Positions 14,711 through 22,183 of a stretch of 64,000 nucleotides of DNA are shown here, in pieces; within the stretch, counting starts at the first letter, position 1; each line of letters opens with the position of its first letter. This DNA is from Sideroxydans sp. (GTDB lineage Bacteria > Pseudomonadota > Gammaproteobacteria > Burkholderiales > Gallionellaceae). The notes beneath the pieces are model-generated. The model was not told the DNA's origin. It worked only from the letters and a program-made list of their open reading frames with translations, and did not search any database. A program made the translations under genes and the position numbers. The DNA lies in assembly GCA_024636935.1 (NCBI GenBank), contig JAGXGC010000016.1, forward strand, positions 1 through 64,000. The letters run 5' to 3'.

Positions 14711-15583
14711 TTAACCGAGCGCAATCCGATCCAAATACCGAGCTCGGTAAAGCAATCGCGGATGCAGCGGATCGTCAGTGAAGGCGCTGCGGTCATGCAG
14801 CACGTTGTTGCAGAGCAGGCCCATGCCGGGTTGCATGGTGGTGTTGAAGACTTGCGGGACGTCGGAGGCGAGTAGGGCTTCCAGTGCGGCGACGGCGGCT
14901 TTGGTGGCGTCGTCTTTCTTCCATTCGATGCTGCGGGTGCGGGCGGTGTAGCGCATGTGCAGATTACCTTCTGCATCCACTGAAAATACCGGGCCGCTTT
15001 GTGCGGGGCGCACGCCGTCGTTCTCATCAACCCGTTCTGGGATGGTCATCACGTCTGGTTGCATCAATGCTTTGATGTGCGCCGGGTCTTGCTCGCGTAG
15101 CAGCAAGTAGCACAACTCGTGATCCATCAATCTGTTCTCGCCACCGCTGGCGGCGTCGCGCACGCAATGCAGCACCATGGCGCGTATCTGTCTTTCCGGC
15201 GGGTTGTAGTAGCCATCGGTGTGCCATTTGATTGGTTTGTCGGTGTATGGGATGTAGTGCTTACGGGTGCCGCCATCGACCACGCGGATGGACGATACGC
15301 CGTCTTCACCGGCCAGCCAGTTGGCATCCAACTGGTTCAGGCCGAATTGCTCACCCAGCTTGCGCAGGATGTTGCTGTCTTCTTCCAGCATGGGGCTGGC
15401 GTAGATCGCCATGTTGCAATTTTTGATGCGTGACGAGAGTGCGGCGTGTTCACTTTGAGTGAGGGCGCGCGGGTCTTTGACTTCTACGATGAGGTCGGCG
15501 GCTGTGCGCGGTGCGCTGGCCAGTTTGGCATCGCGCCAGTGCTGGAATGCGGCGTCATCGGCGAGGTCGAAAGGGTTGTTCAT
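14711..15583 (-). CDS. TauD/TfdA-family Fe(II)/2-oxoglutarate dioxygenase
   Basis: 290 residues. The facial-triad motif HTD is at His121/Asp123 (KWHTDGYYNPP); the distal His is in NNVLHDRSAF and the 2-oxoglutarate-binding Arg in RLLYRARYLD. Family members hydroxylate taurine, sulfonates, carnitine precursors or other small acids; the substrate cannot be read from sequence. It is the last gene of a minus-strand operon with TusA- and DsrC-like carriers; its start overlaps the previous stop by one base (TGATG). Release of sulfite from a sulfonate would fit this setting, but that is inference. Confidence 0.85.
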   Translation of the reverse strand: MNNPFDLADDAAFQHWRDAKLASAPRTAADLIVEVKDPRALTQSEHAALSSRIKNCNMAIYASPMLEEDSNILRKLGEQFGLNQLDANWLAGEDGVSSIRVVDGGTRKHYIPYTDKPIKWHTDGYYNPPERQIRAMVLHCVRDAASGGENRLMDHELCYLLLREQDPAHIKALMQPDVMTIPERVDENDGVRPAQSGPVFSVDAEGNLHMRYTARTRSIEWKKDDATKAAVAALEALLASDVPQVFNTTMQPGMGLLCNNVLHDRSAFTDDPLHPRLLYRARYLDRIALG

Positions 15584-16218
15584 CAGTCGCCGCTGGTGCC
15601 ACTACGTTTGCGTGCAGGGCGGGGCTCTTCTTCCCACAGGCCGCGCAAAGTTTTCTCCACCAGTTTTACGGTATCGGGCGCTTCGAAGCTGATCATCGGG
15701 TCGATGATCCACTTGGCATCTTCTTCGCTCAGTATCTGGCTGATGCAGTAGGCGAGATAACGATAGAAGCTGTAGTCCGGTCCGTTCTCGTCATAGCCGA
15801 AATCTGCGTATTCCCCTGCGCGTAGATTGAGTAGGTCGATGAACGATTGCTTGCAGGATTTGATGTCCTGCTCCAGCAATCGGCTGCGGTTCTCGGCATA
15901 GGTCTCGCCTGTGCGATTCGCCAGATTGCCGGTGAACACCTGCCGATCTTCTTCGGATAGTTTGCGATAGGCGAGACGATCCGCGACCAGGATCAGGAAC
16001 ACCAGATATTCGGCGAGAAAATCCAGATACTGCGGCCCGGTCTCGATCTGGAAATCGTCCTTGCGCGTGCGGCGCAGGGACGCATCGGCGATACGCCAGA
16101 GCGTGAAGGCGAGGGCGTCCGAGATCTCCTGCGGAGAACGCTCCCGGCCATCCTTGAACCAGTTGCTCTTGATGCGGATCGCGACGTGCGCTTTATCCCT
16201 TGCGGATGAAGAATTCAT
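15583..16218 (-). CDS. Conserved protein of unknown function in the tusA/dsrC-like operon
   Basis: About 211 residues from ATG 16218, which lies 26 bases inside the tandem TusA gene. The frame is open 7 codons further up to another ATG. It looks soluble and helical, with acidic and aromatic patches (YLDFLAEYLVFLILVADRLAY, YSFYRYLAYCISQIL) and two scattered cysteines. No signal peptide or catalytic motif is recognisable. I do not know a named family. Overlaps with genes on both sides make it a firm member of the operon and tie its job to sulfur transfer. Confidence 0.75.
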   Translation of the reverse strand: MNSSSARDKAHVAIRIKSNWFKDGRERSPQEISDALAFTLWRIADASLRRTRKDDFQIETGPQYLDFLAEYLVFLILVADRLAYRKLSEEDRQVFTGNLANRTGETYAENRSRLLEQDIKSCKQSFIDLLNLRAGEYADFGYDENGPDYSFYRYLAYCISQILSEEDAKWIIDPMISFEAPDTVKLVEKTLRGLWEEEPRPARKRSGTSGD

Positions 16219-16675
16219 GCACACCTGCCGCAGTCTCAAGGGTTTCCAGTACGGTCATGCCGGTGCTTGCTGCCCAGCCTTCGACGTCGGATGCAACACC
16301 AGGGCAGTCACTGATCAAGCGCAGTACTTCGTTTGCCTGCATGCCGTTCAGCAGCTTCTTGGCTTCGACGATAGGGCCGGGGCAGACTGCACCACGGATA
16401 TCCAGCGTGACGTGGGCGTGCGGATGCTTCGCGTTCTTGCCACCTTTCTGGATGTGATAGCCGGTGCTGCCACCTTCCATTTTCTCGGTCTTGATGACCG
16501 AATTGCCGGTCAGCTCAGCCCAAGAGAACAGATCATCCGGCGTGCCGGGGCAGTTGGAGATCAGTAGCAACACTTGGCCGGCGTTCAACTCGTCCACCAT
16601 GCGCTTGGCACCGATCAGCGGCTTGGGGCAAGACAGCCCCTTCATATCCAGTACTACATGTACGTTGTCATCCAT
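16193..16675 (-). CDS. Tandem TusA-domain sulfur carrier (two TusA repeats)
   Basis: 160 residues from ATG 16675, preceded by AAGGAG (reverse strand, 16685-16690). Two complete TusA/SirA folds are fused. Domain 1 (about 6-78) has the sulfur-accepting motif GLSCPKP with Cys16; domain 2 (about 86-158) has GAVCPGP with Cys98. Each also has a second cysteine in an xCPG turn (Cys42, Cys124). TusA carries persulfide sulfur on the first Cys and hands it to DsrE-type proteins or TusBCD/E. Ordinary TusA is about 80 residues, so the duplication is unusual. It lies 13 bases after a DsrC-like gene and overlaps the next gene. A role feeding the adjacent divergent dsr system is likely. Confidence 0.9.
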   Translation of the reverse strand: MDDNVHVVLDMKGLSCPKPLIGAKRMVDELNAGQVLLLISNCPGTPDDLFSWAELTGNSVIKTEKMEGGSTGYHIQKGGKNAKHPHAHVTLDIRGAVCPGPIVEAKKLLNGMQANEVLRLISDCPGVASDVEGWAASTGMTVLETLETAAGVHEFFIRKG

Positions 16676-16688
16676 TTTCTTGGTCTCC

Positions 16689-17018
16689 TTAGTATCCGCC
16701 CTTGCCATAAGGCTGGGGCAGTCCTGCGATCTTGGCGGCTTGCTTGGCGGGGCCGGTGGGGAACAGATCGTACAGCGCCTTACTGTCTGCATCTGCCCAG
16801 AACTCATTGACGCCCTTCAGCATGTTGCGGAAGTTCGGCGTGTGTCCTTCTTCGCGATATTGATCGCGCATGTAGTTGATGATCTCCCAGTGTTTGGGGG
16901 TCAGCTCGATCTGTTCGGCAGCAGCGATCACACCGACTACTTCTTCGCTGTAATCCGGCTCCAACAGAAAGCCATCGTCATCGGTCGCAAGTTCGTTACC
17001 AGCTACTTCGTATCCCAT
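16689..17018 (-). CDS. DsrC/TusE-family protein lacking all cysteines
   Basis: 109 residues from ATG 17018, with AAGGAG at 17025-17030 on the reverse strand. It follows the DsrC fold throughout: EVAGNELATDDDGFLLE, LTPKHWEIINYMRDQY, and a C-terminal arm GPAKQAAKIAGLPQPYG that aligns with the arm of the true DsrC in this window (GPGKQACKIAGLPKPTGCV). Both redox cysteines of that arm are replaced, by Ala and by a GKGGY ending, and the protein has no Cys at all. It cannot carry sulfur as a trisulfide. Cys-less DsrC paralogues have been proposed to be regulatory or scaffold proteins; here it may dock with the TusA- or Cas6-like neighbours. Confidence 0.88.
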   Translation of the reverse strand: MGYEVAGNELATDDDGFLLEPDYSEEVVGVIAAAEQIELTPKHWEIINYMRDQYREEGHTPNFRNMLKGVNEFWADADSKALYDLFPTGPAKQAAKIAGLPQPYGKGGY

Positions 17019-17057
17019 CGTTGTCTCCTTCGTTTGTTGAGTCAAAGTTATCGAATG

Positions 17058-17645
17058 TCATTCCAGACCGGAGATGACTTTGTGCGGCACAAAGATGCCG
17101 CACCCCAGATTGCGCCCGCTACCCATGCCGGCGTATTGGATGCGTAAGGAATCTTCAGGTGTCAGATCGTGCATCACCAGACTGAAACCGCTGATGGCTT
17201 GCTGATCGCTATTCAAGCTGTGATGCCTGCCGCAGATAAATTTGCTGCGCACTTCCAATGCAGCCAGTGCTGCATTCACCATCTCCATGAACTCGATCTC
17301 GTCGCTCGGCCCTGCCACCAGATGTGCATGCAGGGTGGAGTGGGGCTGTATCTCGCGTGTCTTGCCTTGTCCCAGTGTCAGCGTGACAGCACCGATCTGC
17401 AGTGCTTGTTTGGAGAGCGTCATCGCCACATCTTGTAATGCCCGCGGCAAGCGCAGTACCAGCTTGCTGCGTTTGGGGAGTAACAGCTCGCCACTATTGT
17501 TGGGGCCGCGCAAAGGGATCACACCCACATCTTCGCTTTCAGCCAGTGCCGGTGCGATGCGCAGCAATGCTTCCCAAAGTTGATGGGGATAGTCGGCGGG
17601 GATGCTTTCGCCGTGCAGGTCGAAGCTGATCTCTATCGCGCTCAT
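17058..17645 (-). CDS. Stand-alone Cas6/Cmx6-like RAMP-fold protein
   Basis: 195 residues from ATG 17645. The sequence resembles the Cas6 subtype-MYXAN (Cmx6) family: an early IEISFDLHGESIPADY strand-turn, GVIPLRG, SKLVLRLPRA, HAHLVAG, and a C-terminal Gly-rich RAMP loop (GMGSGRNLGCGIFVPHK, residues 173-189). Cas6 normally cuts CRISPR precursor RNA. No CRISPR array or other cas gene is present in these 64 kb, and the neighbours are sulfur carriers. The start overlaps the upstream 71-residue gene by 4 bases (ATGA), so the two are translationally coupled. Candidate catalytic His/Tyr residues cannot be assigned by eye. An RNA-binding or processing role inside a sulfur-relay operon is the interesting inference; a repurposed non-RNA role is possible. 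Confidence 0.72.
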   Translation of the reverse strand: MSAIEISFDLHGESIPADYPHQLWEALLRIAPALAESEDVGVIPLRGPNNSGELLLPKRSKLVLRLPRALQDVAMTLSKQALQIGAVTLTLGQGKTREIQPHSTLHAHLVAGPSDEIEFMEMVNAALAALEVRSKFICGRHHSLNSDQQAISGFSLVMHDLTPEDSLRIQYAGMGSGRNLGCGIFVPHKVISGLE

Positions 17646-17857
17646 GCCTGTTTCTGGGAATCTGCCCAGTCTTGCATGACGGTCGCCCATTTACTTGCGG
17701 TGGCAGGATCGATATCAAAGATGGTGAAACGCTTGCCTTCGCGGATGCGGATGCGCAACATGTTCAAGCCGCCTTCGTCATGGTCGACATGCTGCAGTTC
17801 GATCTGTTGCTTGCCAATTGGGGCGGTGAACTGCTCGAGTGCATTGATATGTGCCAT
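17642..17857 (-). CDS. Small conserved protein, first gene of the tusA/Cas6-like operon
   Basis: 71 residues. It reads as a compact alpha/beta protein with a basic RIRIREGKRFTIFD hairpin followed by a helix (PATASKWATVMQDWA). There is no Cys, signal peptide or membrane segment. It ends in an ATGA overlap with the Cas6-like gene, which implies stoichiometric coupling, so the two may form a complex. I cannot name its family with confidence. Confidence 0.72.
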   Translation of the reverse strand: MAHINALEQFTAPIGKQQIELQHVDHDEGGLNMLRIRIREGKRFTIFDIDPATASKWATVMQDWADSQKQA

Positions 17858-17893
17858 GGCTATCCTGTATGAGTTTCCCGTGTGCCTTAGTTA

Positions 17894-18036
17894 ACAGGTT
17901 GTTGCAAAACTACTGCGGTGGTCATCTGCTGCGTTGCACGGTGCTCGGAATCCTCATGTACTTTATGTACATTCCGGTTCCTGCGCGCCGTGCGCCTTGC
18001 ATCTGACCATCCTCGCTACGTTTTTCAACAACCTGT
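17894..18036. repeat. 143-bp long imperfect palindromic element with 11-bp terminal inverted repeats
   Basis: ACAGGTTGTTG (17894-17904) and CAACAACCTGT (18026-18036) are exact complements. The interior continues as an imperfect inverted repeat: GGTCATCTGC against GCATCTGACC, GTGCTCGGAAT against ATTCCGG, with a centre GTAC-TTTAT-GTAC. The whole can fold into a single long cruciform or RNA hairpin. It sits in the 424-bp gap between the divergent tusA/Cas6-like and dsr operons. It resembles non-autonomous, MITE- or REP-like dispersed repeats; no coding capacity. Confidence 0.8.
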
Positions 18037-18281
18037 AAGGTGGGTCGGGTAATGCGGCAAGTCTATCCGCAATGGCACCTGCATTGGAATACTACCGGGG
18101 AAGGTAAAAGCACCCCCCATTAGAGTTACCTAACATACCCGCTCAGGGTGATGGTCGGCATGGTGACACCCTCGTAATATGCTCAACCATTAGAAACCGG
18201 GACAAAGAGCTCGGATGTAATCAACCAACCTGCCGAGCACTGCATAAGCCAGAGGCACAGCAAATCGAAAGGAAAGACATT
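18037..18281 (+). promoter_or_regulatory. Presumed dsr promoter region
   Basis: The 245 bases before dsrA must hold the operon promoter. A short dyad ACCC-GCTCA-GGGT lies near 18138-18150 and could be an operator. No clear sigma-70 pair or riboswitch fold is evident. A ribosome site GAAAGGAAAG immediately precedes ATG 18282. Confidence 0.45.
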
Positions 18282-19577
18282 ATGGCCAAGAAGATGCATG
18301 ACACGCCCAACCTTGATCAATTGGAGTCCGGCCCTTGGCCCAGCTTCGTCACAGGCCTGAAACATCTGGCTGAAGACAAAGACTATATGGTTGACCTGCT
18401 GGGTCAGCTGGAAGAGTCCTACAAGACCAAGAAGGGCTACTGGAAGGGCGGTACAGTAGGTGTGTTCGGTTATGGTGGCGGTGTGATCCCGCGTTTCACC
18501 GAGCTGAAGAATGAAGACGGCACCCCCAAGTTTCCGGACGCAGCTGAATTCCACACCCTGCGCATCATGCCGCCTCCCGGCATGCACTACGATACTGACA
18601 CCCTGCGCAAGTTCTGCGACATCTGGGAAGAGCATGGTTCCGGCCTGATCGCTTTCCACGGCCAGTCCGGCGACATCATGTTCCAGGGCGCGACCACAGA
18701 GAATGTGCAAAAGTCCTTCGACGAGATCAACGAGATGGGCTTCGACCTCGGTGGTGCCGGTCCTGCGGTGCGTACTTCTATGTCTTGTGTGGGTGCGGCA
18801 CGTTGCGAACAGTCCTGCTACAACGAAGCACAAGCGCACCGCGCCGTGCTGAACACCTTCCTCGACGATATCCACCGTCCTTCTCTGCCTTACAAGCTTA
18901 AGTTCAAGTTCTCCGGTTGCCCTAACGATTGTATGAACGCGATCCAGCGCTCAGACATCGCCGTGATCGGCACTTGGCGCGACAACATCCGTACCGACGA
19001 AGAGCTGGCCAAGAAGTGGTTCGCCAAGCACGGCATGGACGAGTTGGTGAACGACGTCGTGGCACGTTGCCCGACCAAGGCTTTCCAAGTCAAAGAGCTT
19101 TCCAAGATCAAGGCTGGCGAGCACACCTCCACTGTGGCGGTCAACGACACCCACGGTATCGAGATCAGCAACCAAGACTGTGTGCGCTGCATGCACTGCG
19201 TGAACGTCATGACCGGCGCTTTGGCGCCGGGCAAAGACAAGGGCGCGACCGTGCTGGTCGGCGGTAAGAGCCACCTGAAGATCGGCGGCCTGATGGGCAC
19301 CGTGGTGTTCCCGTTCATCAAGCTGGATACAGAAGAAGAGGTGGCCAATCTGGTCGACTTCTCTGAACGTCACATCGACTTTTTCGCAGAGAACGCGCTG
19401 GAGCATGAACGTTCCGGCGAGATGATCGAGCGTATCGGTTTGTCCAATTATCTCGATGCAATGGAGATCGAAGTTGATCCAGCTATGGTCAATTCGCCAC
19501 GTATGAACCCCTACGTCCGTACCGACGGCTGGGAAGACGAAGTCGCCAAGATCAACGCCAAGAAACAAGCAGCCTGA
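18282..19577 (+). CDS. dsrA: Reverse dissimilatory sulfite reductase, alpha subunit
   Basis: 431 residues. DsrA and DsrB form the alpha2beta2 cytoplasmic enzyme that here should run oxidatively, turning DsrC-bound sulfur into sulfite. The siroheme-coupled [4Fe-4S] ligands are Cys169 and Cys175 (SCVGAARCEQSC) and Cys213 and Cys217 (FSGCPNDCMNA). An inserted ferredoxin domain supplies Cys300, Cys303, Cys306 and probably Cys263. Length is normal. The oxidative direction is inferred from the presence of dsrEFH and dsrL, which mark sulfur oxidisers. First gene of a long operon; 11 bases to dsrB. Confidence 0.98.
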   Translation: MAKKMHDTPNLDQLESGPWPSFVTGLKHLAEDKDYMVDLLGQLEESYKTKKGYWKGGTVGVFGYGGGVIPRFTELKNEDGTPKFPDAAEFHTLRIMPPPGMHYDTDTLRKFCDIWEEHGSGLIAFHGQSGDIMFQGATTENVQKSFDEINEMGFDLGGAGPAVRTSMSCVGAARCEQSCYNEAQAHRAVLNTFLDDIHRPSLPYKLKFKFSGCPNDCMNAIQRSDIAVIGTWRDNIRTDEELAKKWFAKHGMDELVNDVVARCPTKAFQVKELSKIKAGEHTSTVAVNDTHGIEISNQDCVRCMHCVNVMTGALAPGKDKGATVLVGGKSHLKIGGLMGTVVFPFIKLDTEEEVANLVDFSERHIDFFAENALEHERSGEMIERIGLSNYLDAMEIEVDPAMVNSPRMNPYVRTDGWEDEVAKINAKKQAA

Positions 19578-19588
19578 GGAGATAGAAG

Positions 19589-20683
19589 ATGAATCAAGCC
19601 GTCCAAGCCGCACCCGCAGCAAAGCGCAAGCCGAAGGAGACCGGTGTTCCGGATAACACCAAGTATCTGCACCCGACGCTGCTGAAGAACTATGGCAACT
19701 GGCGTTATCACGACCGTCCGCGTCCGGGTGTGTTGCATCACGTGGCACACAGCGGCGACGAAGTATGGTCTGTGCGCGCCGGCACACAGCGTCAGATGGA
19801 CGTTCATACCATCCGCAAGCTGTGTGATATCGCTGACAACTTCGCTGAAGGTCGTGTGCGCTTCACTATCCGTTCCAACATCGAGTACATCGTTACTGAT
19901 GAGAAGAAGGTCGCACCACTGATCGCCGAACTCGAGAAGAGCGGCTTCCCAGTCGGTGGTACGGGTAACTCGATCACTATGATCGCCCACACCCAGGGCT
20001 GGTTGCACTGCGACATTCCCGGCACCGACGCTTCCGGCGTGGTGAAGGCGCTGATGGACGAGTTGTATGACGAGTTCCGTCGCGAAGAGATGCCTAACCG
20101 TGTGCACTTGTCCACTTCCTGCTGCGAGATCAACTGCGGTGGTCAGGCTGACTTGGCTGTCATCGTGCAACACACCAAGCCGCCCGTGATCAACCATGAT
20201 ATGGTCGCCAACGTGTGCGAACGTCCGACAGTGGTCGCTCGTTGCCCGGTTGCGGCGATTCGTCCGGCCATGGTCAACGGTAAGCCTTCGCTGGAGATCG
20301 ACGAAACCAAATGTATGTGCTGCGGTGCTTGCTACCCACCATGCCCGCCGATGCAGATCAACGATCCGGAATTCTCCAAGCTGGCCATCTGGGTCGGTGG
20401 TAAGAACTCCAACGCACGCGGCAAGCCGACCTTCATGAAGATGGTTGCTGCCGGTCTGCCCAACAATCCGCCGCGCTGGCCTGAAGTCGGCGCTGTGGTG
20501 AAGAACATCCTCACCGTGTACAAGGAAGATGCGCGTCCTTGGGAGCGTCTGGCTGACTGGATCGATCGTATCGGCTGGCCACGTTTCTTCGAGAAGACAG
20601 GCCTGCCGTTCACCAAGTACCTGATCGACGACTGGCGCGGTTCGCGTTACAACCTGAACGCTTCGGCACACATCCGTTTCTAA
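19589..20683 (+). CDS. dsrB: Reverse dissimilatory sulfite reductase, beta subunit
   Basis: 364 residues. Siroheme/[4Fe-4S] cysteines lie in GWLHCDIPG (Cys141) and STSCCEINCGG (Cys178/179 and Cys183). The ferredoxin domain is KCMCCGACYPPCPP (Cys242-252) with Cys219 upstream. The N-terminal extension rich in Ala, Lys and Pro is usual in DsrB. It pairs with DsrA and carries the catalytically active siroheme in known enzymes. A GAGGAG ribosome site precedes ATG 19589. Confidence 0.98.
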   Translation: MNQAVQAAPAAKRKPKETGVPDNTKYLHPTLLKNYGNWRYHDRPRPGVLHHVAHSGDEVWSVRAGTQRQMDVHTIRKLCDIADNFAEGRVRFTIRSNIEYIVTDEKKVAPLIAELEKSGFPVGGTGNSITMIAHTQGWLHCDIPGTDASGVVKALMDELYDEFRREEMPNRVHLSTSCCEINCGGQADLAVIVQHTKPPVINHDMVANVCERPTVVARCPVAAIRPAMVNGKPSLEIDETKCMCCGACYPPCPPMQINDPEFSKLAIWVGGKNSNARGKPTFMKMVAAGLPNNPPRWPEVGAVVKNILTVYKEDARPWERLADWIDRIGWPRFFEKTGLPFTKYLIDDWRGSRYNLNASAHIRF

Positions 20684-21847: not shown

Positions 21848-22183
21848 ATGGCTAGCATCGAAGTCGGCGGCAAGAGCTACGAAACAGACGAAGAAGGTTA
21901 TCTGGTCAACCTGAGCGAGTGGAATCCTGAAGTTGCGGACTACATCGCCAAGACCGAAAGCATCGAAATGACAGATCAGCACTGGGAAGTGATCAACTTC
22001 CTGCGTGAATATTTCGACGAGTATCAGATCGCCCCCGCAGTGCGCGTGCTGACCAAAGCGATCGGCAAGAAGTTGGGCGCAGAGAAGGGTAACAGCGAGT
22101 ACCTGTATGGTCTGTTCCCATATGGTCCAGGCAAGCAGGCATGCAAGATCGCCGGTCTGCCTAAGCCTACTGGCTGCGTTTGA
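21848..22183 (+). CDS. dsrC: Sulfur carrier DsrC
   Basis: 111 residues. The C-terminal arm has both redox cysteines, Cys99 and penultimate Cys110, exactly ten residues apart (CKIAGLPKPTGC). DsrC accepts sulfur from DsrEFH, presents a persulfide to DsrAB, and its trisulfide/disulfide exchanges with DsrK of the membrane complex. A very good ribosome site, AGAAGGAGAT, precedes ATG 21848, in line with the high DsrC amounts known from other bacteria. Compare the Cys-less paralogue at 16689-17018. Confidence 0.98.
   Translation: MASIEVGGKSYETDEEGYLVNLSEWNPEVADYIAKTESIEMTDQHWEVINFLREYFDEYQIAPAVRVLTKAIGKKLGAEKGNSEYLYGLFPYGPGKQACKIAGLPKPTGCV

Follow-up and report, generated by a model that had tools for sequence, protein, structure and literature searches.

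A Cas6 homolog conserved beside the reverse dissimilatory sulfite reductase genes of sulfur-oxidizing Burkholderiales

In the parts consulted of five published reports (PMC10952691, PMC5944118, PMC8889020, PMC5728499, and PMC6397845), cas6, where it is named, occurs in CRISPR contexts only. A Sulfolobus Cas6 known to process CRISPR RNA lacks the catalytic histidine and can still cut RNA, and its authors place RNA recognition above catalysis (PMC3652601, sections consulted). For the dsr locus, dsrQ (tauD-like) and tusA-like genes have been described next to dsr (PMC7596348, section 17, citing Lenk et al., 2012), and the same section reports that the tauD-like gene is divergent from dsr in many sulfur oxidizers, as in the locus described here. 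That section makes no mention of Cas6, DUF6967 or a cysteine-less DsrC. We found no earlier report of Cas6 at dsr in the literature searched, most subscription papers lying outside it.

The window analyzed here, a 64,000-nucleotide stretch of DNA from Sideroxydans sp., carries on its minus strand an operon that diverges from dsrAB. The operon codes for a 71-amino acid DUF6967 protein (17642–17857), a 195-amino acid Cas6-like RAMP protein (17058–17645), a 109-amino acid DsrC paralog without cysteines (16689–17018) and a 160-amino acid tandem TusA protein (16193–16675). A preliminary description had placed the four genes at these positions, which our analysis confirms, and had considered them translationally coupled. 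Coupling in the strict sense holds only for the first pair, which overlaps by 4 bp (ATGA). Gaps of 39 bp (Cas6-like to DsrC-like) and 13 bp (DsrC-like to TusA) separate the genes at the other two junctions, and an AGGAG-type stretch lies upstream of both the DsrC-like and the TusA genes. The operon continues on the same strand into a conserved 211-amino acid protein of unassigned function (15583–16218; working name p218; start codon picked by eye) and a TauD-like dioxygenase (14711–15583; PF02668, 70.8 bits), which by family and position we take as the dsrQ of the literature. These two proteins were found in 73 and 66, respectively, of the 80 loci compared. The window copy of the 211-amino acid protein had no Pfam or NCBIfam match, and PDB profile searches with it and with DUF6967 returned nothing significant. 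On the plus strand, dsrA (18282–19577; TIGR02064, 493.9 bits, above cut-off) precedes dsrB (19589–20683), a second match to TIGR02064 that at 87 bits falls under the model's cut-off, as expected for dsrB, and that adjoins dsrA in relatives. A canonical dsrC with two cysteines and a GCV tail (21848–22183, plus strand) served as the comparison copy. Across the 80 loci, dsrA is divergent from the DUF6967 gene, at a distance of 185–747 bp, in 73. Bacteria with such a locus include named isolates, for instance Sulfurisoma sediminicola BSN1 (L028).

The product of 17058–17645 is a true Cas6 homolog, as the preliminary description had proposed from its likeness to Cas6/Cmx6. It matches PF09559 (189.1 bits, cut-off 26.7, E 1e-55), TIGR02807 cas6_cmx6 (146.2 bits, cut-off 98.85) and six PADLOC Cas6 models. 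TIGR02807 also recognizes each of the 57 aligned relatives, with E no higher than 0.001. Homology to the Cas6 of a type I-B CAST (8fcj/8fcu chain B) is full length, with a profile E of 3e-32 to 8fcj_B. Furthermore, a Foldseek search with the AF2 model (pLDDT 94.1, pTM 0.89) matched 8fcu_B (TM 0.90, E 3e-18), so the predicted fold is the tandem RAMP fold of type I-B CAST and type I-MYXAN Cas6. The G-rich loop, with the R and GCG of those proteins, is also preserved: G173, G175, G181, and G183 are invariant and R178 is near-invariant in 57 rows. In the tree, 86 dsr-linked rows stand apart from seven plasmid Cas6 proteins (support 100/99). Six of the seven plasmid relatives inspected, from eight in all, adjoin cas3. 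A viral or phage origin was rejected, a single-sequence search having found no relatives in viral contigs or phages.

The dsr-linked proteins differ from their CRISPR relatives at the putative active site and in conserved basic residues. A histidine occupies the putative active-site column, a role inferred from the alignment for a residue that is not universal in Cas6, in 5 of 7 CRISPR relatives and in 8fcj, versus none of 81 dsr-linked rows. This suggests that the dsr-linked Cas6 is probably nuclease-dead. It falls short of proof because the histidine is likewise missing from two of the seven CRISPR-side proteins, and a Cas6 without it can still cut (PMC3652601, sections consulted). Basic residues were lost as well. 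Of 13 columns that are basic in at least five of the seven CRISPR relatives, three stay basic in at least 90% of dsr-linked rows and eight are basic in fewer than 25%. The pI falls from 9.3–9.6 in the CRISPR relatives to a family median of 7.2 and to 5.97 in the window protein, which by charge would be a poor RNA binder. Both the loss of basic residues and the near-neutral pI thus argue against CRISPR-like RNA binding, as judged from sequence. The group has fixed motifs of its own, including a CGIFVPHK tail, a fixed glycine in 'CGK/R' and a near-fixed glutamate. Compared with L005, a near relative, the Cas6-like gene of the window has a dN of 0.047 and a dS of 0.346.

The linkage of this gene to sulfur genes, noted in the preliminary description, is conserved. 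In a survey of 300 genomes drawn from the order, in which PF09559 and dsrA were matched, all 58 genomes with PF09559 had it within 5 kb of dsrA, and 55 of these within 850 bp, match to match. Conversely, 58 of the 64 dsrA-bearing genomes had a Cas6-family match. In a phylum-wide sample, PF09559 was present in five genomes; all five are Burkholderiales and belong to the 52 genomes that carry dsrA. Four of the six dsrA genomes without PF09559 retain DUF6967 and other module genes; in the stretches taken, the cysteine-less DsrC is missing from three of the four, and the fourth codes for a DsrC-like protein that is divergent in sequence. These co-absences represent few events because two of the genomes (G217 and G277) belong to one genus. 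Eight Cas6 genomes lack DUF6967, and the four of them that were fetched, together with L060, retain the KGGY-tailed DsrC. Six loci have Cas6 and no such DsrC (L015, L024, L031, L033, L072, and L082).

The DsrC paralog resembles the DsrC/TusE family in its profile matches (PF04358, 115.8 bits; TIGR03342 also over cut-off), length and GLP-x-P arm. It differs in having no cysteine in the window copy, as previously noted and confirmed here, and in ending with KGGY or KAGY where DsrC has its Cys-Val/Ile end. This tail is found in 71 of the 80 loci, or 72 if KGEH, the only form in L017, is allowed. Between the window and L005, dN is 0.004 and dS 0.267. DUF6967 (PF22295, 108.6 bits) has a predicted bbbb-alpha fold (AF2 pLDDT 92.7, pTM 0.74) that tentatively resembles a single PUR-alpha repeat. 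Its top five Foldseek matches are all PUR-alpha (probability 0.98–0.99, TM 0.64–0.68), yet at E values of 0.21–0.52, with 11–15% sequence identity and an acidic pI (5.8). In L078, L098/G020, and G150, DUF6967 and Cas6 are read in a single frame.

We tentatively propose that the captured Cas6, DUF6967 and the cysteine-less DsrC form a complex that tunes dsr expression via nucleic acid, a reading that we consider quite possible, though less likely than not. An ancestor of these dsr bacteria would have captured a relative of the Cas6 proteins found in type I-MYXAN systems of cyanobacteria and in type I-B CASTs, the direction of capture being inferred, and linked it with the genes for reverse dissimilatory sulfite reductase. 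The predicted two-RAMP fold and the G-rich loop persist in the protein, and the usual active-site histidine and most conserved basic residues are lost. Within the complex, the cysteine-less DsrC would dock on Dsr proteins without sulfur transfer and so report or limit the state of DsrC/DsrAB. The Cas6/DUF6967 part would tune dsr expression by binding nucleic acid, with dsr mRNA or single-stranded DNA of the promoter as the likeliest ligand. The preliminary description had raised an RNA-level regulator of the dsr operon as one model, and such a role may apply here. Nucleic-acid binding by this part is plausible, since the Cas6 fold, the G-rich loop and the PUR-like predicted fold of DUF6967 speak for it. 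A more specific version seems somewhat less likely. In it, a domesticated, nuclease-dead Cas6 and its PUR-like partner would join a DsrC mimic blind to sulfur in a ribonucleoprotein coupling reverse-Dsr sulfur flux to dsr expression, so that an RNA-binding protein derived from CRISPR would have become a metabolic regulator.

Alternatively, the complex could be a protein-only factor. The Cas6 fold would then be a scaffold or chaperone for the cysteine-less DsrC and DsrAB, acting in assembly, storage or inhibition with no involvement of nucleic acid. We take this possibility seriously without expecting it to be correct. It is consistent with the loss of conserved basic residues and the neutral to acidic pI, with the joint absence of Cas6 and the cysteine-less DsrC in three of four genomes that retain part of the module, and with the very low dN of the paralog. 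However, the preserved G-rich loop speaks against it, as does the PUR-like predicted fold of DUF6967, which is coupled, and sometimes fused, to Cas6.

Candidate nucleic-acid targets were sought at the divergent promoter and the dsrH-dsrC gap, where we found no Cas6-specific RNA element. Upstream of dsrA, relatives have a common motif (consensus nATAcCCCtTTCGGGTAGGT), its loop variable and its stem constant by eye; 56 of 59 training promoters and 28 of 29 held-out promoters score above the 99% shuffle level. Four Cas6-less genomes retain it (L111–L114, scores 19.0–22.4) and two Cas6-bearing loci lack it (L107 and L108); the window, with its best match at 18134–18157, and L005 score only 2.2, under the 5.8 level. 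We rejected the motif as a Cas6 RNA target on these grounds, and it looks like a DNA operator instead. It is missing from L115 and L116, two Cas6-less genomes in which the module is absent, and three of eight second dsrA copies (L120, L123, and L124) are above the motif level and five below. An Rfam sX9 match (17956–18030) belongs to a 156-bp dispersed repeat with seven matches in the source genome, five of them at other sites and two being the element itself and its reverse reading. We took it as a local insertion because the divergent intergenic region spans 280 bp in L005 versus 424 bp in the window. A hairpin upstream of dsrC was also dropped: in 59 loci, dsrH and dsrC lie close together (median gap 36 nt), and folding 12 of the 26 longer gaps one at a time revealed no common structure by eye. 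The same result argues against a re-invented nuclease site processing dsr transcripts. Such a site could be formed by the C-terminal His188-Lys189, a pair identical in all 81 rows and variable among the seven CRISPR relatives, but the histidine is replaced by tyrosine in G221/L117, and we regard this reading as improbable.

Less probable still is the sulfur relay linked to RNA, or branch of tRNA thiolation, that the preliminary description had envisaged. The TusA protein, which PF01206 matches in two stretches, does keep both CPxP cysteines, and each of the 39 nearby tandem frames has at least two such motifs. However, the DsrC paralog, having no cysteine and a KGGY/KAGY tail, would be unable to carry a persulfide on the usual residue, which disfavors a relay through it. 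The cysteine-bearing TusE-like step of the Tus pathway to tRNA is therefore absent from the DsrC/TusE-like member beside Cas6. Furthermore, the linkage follows dsrA, present in 54 of 54 DUF6967 genomes. Tandem TusA is an optional member of the module: only 39 of 80 loci have it at a distance of 2.5 kb or less from the Cas6-like gene, some others being cut by contig ends.

The gene also stands apart from CRISPR, in line with the earlier remark that no array was visible. A scan for exact 16-mers (at least three copies spaced 40–100 bp) found no arrays in the window or in the 80 loci and detected those of the cyanobacterial controls L103 and L106. Profile searches of the source genome gave no Cas1, Cas2 or Cas7/DevR match and no Cas3 over cut-off, helicase matches to Cas3 being sub-cut-off only. 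Nor is there an association with cas1 (17 of 58 Cas6-positive versus 96 of 242 Cas6-negative genomes, p 0.17). Action in trans on arrays elsewhere in the genome is hardly credible: family models do call the protein Cas6/Cmx6 and 17 of its genomes have a Cas1 match, some weak and partial, but 41 of 58 have none, all 58 carry the gene at dsr and the active-site position is altered. Unlike CAST and type I-MYXAN Cas6, the dsr-linked protein has no array at the loci scanned, no cas1 association and no histidine at the usual position. It appears that, in a group of sulfur oxidizers, this Cas6 gave up its CRISPR role for a lasting place beside sulfur-oxidation genes.

Because database models label the protein as a type I-MYXAN CRISPR protein, the dsr-linked Cas6 may be miscounted when CRISPR systems are surveyed in these bacteria and overlooked by sulfur researchers. 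To our knowledge, regulation of the reverse Dsr pathway is poorly understood. If confirmed, the proposed complex would make the Cas6-like protein, DUF6967, the cysteine-less DsrC and the unannotated 211-amino acid protein candidate regulators of this pathway, and would clearly illustrate how an RNA-binding protein of CRISPR can become fixed in an energy-metabolism locus.

The protein encoded at 17058–17645 on the minus strand, which the preliminary description had read as Cas6/Cmx6-like, is a member of the Cas6 family. Profile searches matched it significantly to PF09559 (189.1 bits) and TIGR02807 (146.2 bits, above the model's cut-off), and six PADLOC Cas6 models matched it as well. TIGR02807 also recognized all 57 relatives in our alignment of Cas6-like proteins. 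This NCBIfam model covers the dsr-linked group, so automatic annotation will name these proteins type I-MYXAN Cas6. The AlphaFold2 model (pLDDT 94.1, pTM 0.89) has a predicted Cas6 fold, with the type I-B CAST Cas6 structures 8fcu_B and 8fcj_B as top Foldseek matches (TM 0.90, rmsd 1.7) and further Cas6 structures ranking after them.

The Cas6-like gene is the second of six minus-strand genes divergent from dsrAB, which starts at 18282 on the opposite strand. A DUF6967 gene (17642–17857) is transcribed first and joined to the Cas6-like gene by an ATGA overlap. A Cys-less DsrC paralogue (16689–17018) follows after a gap of 39 bp and tandem TusA (16193–16675) after another 13 bp. Fifth is the gene for a 211-aa protein without assigned function (15583–16218), which shares 26 bp with TusA if the proposed ATG is correct and 1 bp with the sixth, a TauD/dsrQ-like gene (14711–15583). 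Section 17 of one report (PMC7596348) already places dsrQ and tusA-like genes beside dsr. Our literature search, whose coverage left out most subscription journals, turned up no paper that places Cas6, DUF6967 or a Cys-less DsrC next to dsr genes.

Relatives were collected with a peptide-pattern scan of a species-genome collection, which reaches close relatives only, and the best 80 of 98 loci were kept. A divergent dsrA lies 185–747 bp from DUF6967 in 73 of the 80; DUF6967 or a confident dsrA was not found in the other seven, partly owing to contig ends. The gene order set out in the preliminary description is retained in part: DUF6967 (77/80) and a DsrC paralogue with a KGGY or KAGY tail (71/80) stay near Cas6 on its strand, but tandem TusA does so in just 39. 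The same strand carries the 211-aa gene in 73 loci and the TauD-like gene in 66. Two of the loci without a KGGY/KAGY paralogue are cut by contig ends, one has only a KGEH-tailed copy, and six have none. KGEH-tailed paralogues occur near the module in eight loci (L017, L019, L026, L032, L043, L046, L055 and L067), accompanying the KGGY/KAGY paralogue in seven. The conserved 211-aa protein has no match among Pfam or NCBIfam models; its invariant residues over 39 aligned rows are D77-R78, R89, N128, Y134, R150, D164 and W167 (alignment numbering).

Among 300 genomes drawn from the order, PF09559 was present in 58, one copy each. All 58 belong to the 64 with dsrA (61 above cut-off, plus G014, G161 and G261 counted in on fragments), and each match lies at most 5 kb from dsrA. 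When genomes were drawn from the whole phylum (398 and 396, sets possibly not identical), PF09559 was confined to five of them, every one of this order, while 47 of the 52 genomes with dsrA came from outside it. Thus, the link between Cas6 and dsr looks like a trait of one order. From the names of the loci, the order is betaproteobacterial, which we take to be Burkholderiales in GTDB. A locus labelled Chromatiales (L060) clusters in the tree with two genomes of the order.

DUF6967 and Cas6 are fused into a single open frame in two related loci, L078 and L098 (genome G020), and, judged by frame length, in genome G150. DUF6967 has a predicted bbbb-alpha fold (pLDDT 92.7) whose top five PDB matches are all PUR-alpha, with weak E-values. 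Cas6 and the KGGY-tailed DsrC tend to co-occur (six exceptions in 80 loci), as seen from their joint absence in Cas6-less genomes and their joint retention without DUF6967. Four of the six dsrA genomes without PF09559 retain DUF6967 and the 211-aa gene together with TauD and/or TusA genes; the DsrC paralogue is absent from the stretches taken in three (G083, and G217 and G277 of one genus), and the stretch from the fourth (G132) has a DsrC-like protein with a different tail. The stretches from the other two (G145 and G122), which run to contig ends, hold no module genes. Eight genomes have Cas6 without a DUF6967 match, and in the four fetched (G241, G271, G135 and G173), as in L060, a KGGY-tailed DsrC accompanies it. 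Purifying selection is evident between the window and its near relative L005, with dN and dS of 0.004 and 0.267 for this DsrC (109 codons), 0.009 and 0.153 for DsrA, and 0.047 and 0.346 for the Cas6-like protein.

Though still Cas6 by family, the dsr-linked protein differs from a CRISPR-processing Cas6 in its testable features: the histidine and linkage to an array or cas genes. A repeat scan of 127 records, which detects arrays in two cyanobacterial controls (L103 and L106), found none in the window, bearing out the preliminary description, and none in the 80 loci. Short three-copy repeats lie between dsrA and dsrB in the Cas6-less locus of G132 (L112, 8917–9135). Profile searches of the organism's own genome (~95% complete) gave no match to Cas1, Cas2 or DevR/Cas7. 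All matches to the Cas3 core model fell below its cut-off, and this model responds in 14 of 14 control genomes too. Cas1 is not associated with the dsr-linked Cas6 (17/58 Cas6-bearing versus 96/242 Cas6-less genomes, p 0.17). The closest CRISPR-type relatives in a plasmid collection are cyanobacterial (eight records, 25–31% identity), and six of the seven inspected adjoin cas3. One Gloeobacter plasmid Cas6, annotated type I-MYXAN (L105, 2971–3762), has a cupin gene, a PAPS-reductase-family gene and hypothetical genes as neighbours. The annotation shows no cas gene up to 3 kb away, and this protein is a possible second non-CRISPR Cas6.

The 86 dsr-linked rows and seven plasmid Cas6 fall on opposite sides of a branch with support 100/99, in a tree whose root is unplaced and whose long branches call for caution. 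Histidine is absent from all 81 dsr-linked rows (window and 80 loci) at a column where it stands in 8fcj and in five of the seven CRISPR relatives. This column follows the first helix, as Pyrococcus His46 does (PMC3652601), which suggests that it is the catalytic position; that source also shows that a Cas6 lacking this histidine can still cut. A second histidine, present in all seven plasmid Cas6 and absent from 8fcj, is kept in 46 of the 81 rows and replaced by Tyr in 29, the window included. G-loop residues are conserved, and CGIFVPHK is invariant over the 81 rows; outside these, loci L117 and L107 read VPYK and IPHK. The CRISPR set has 13 basic columns: at three of them at least 90% of the dsr-linked rows are still basic, at eight fewer than 25%. 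A further five columns carry a basic residue in 70% or more of the dsr-linked rows. The pI is 5.97 in the window, with a median of 7.2 over 84 rows (three of them repeats of the window protein), versus 9.3–9.6 in the CRISPR set.

Relatives such as Sulfurisoma sediminicola BSN1 (L028), L059 and L065 carry a strongly conserved motif, nATAcCCCtTTCGGGTAGGT, in the divergent promoter region upstream of dsrA, where it probably serves as operator for a dsr transcription factor. We rejected this dyad as a part of the window locus because it scores below shuffle level there. The window's divergent dsr promoter carries a 156-bp dispersed inverted repeat (17890–18045), which recurs at five further places in the genome and has an Rfam sX9 match inside (44.1 bits, gathering 44); the intergenic region is shorter in L005.

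The charge data speak against CRISPR-like RNA binding, and a protein-only accessory role is nearly as likely as a nucleic-acid-binding regulator of dsr, which we put forward tentatively. As such a regulator, the DUF6967, Cas6-like and KGGY-tailed DsrC proteins would form a three-protein complex in which Cas6 may have no nuclease activity, and which would bind nucleic acid and regulate dsr. According to one report (PMC5944118), the DsrC of Allochromatium binds DNA that lies upstream of the dsr cluster; regulation by a protein of the DsrC type thus has a precedent.
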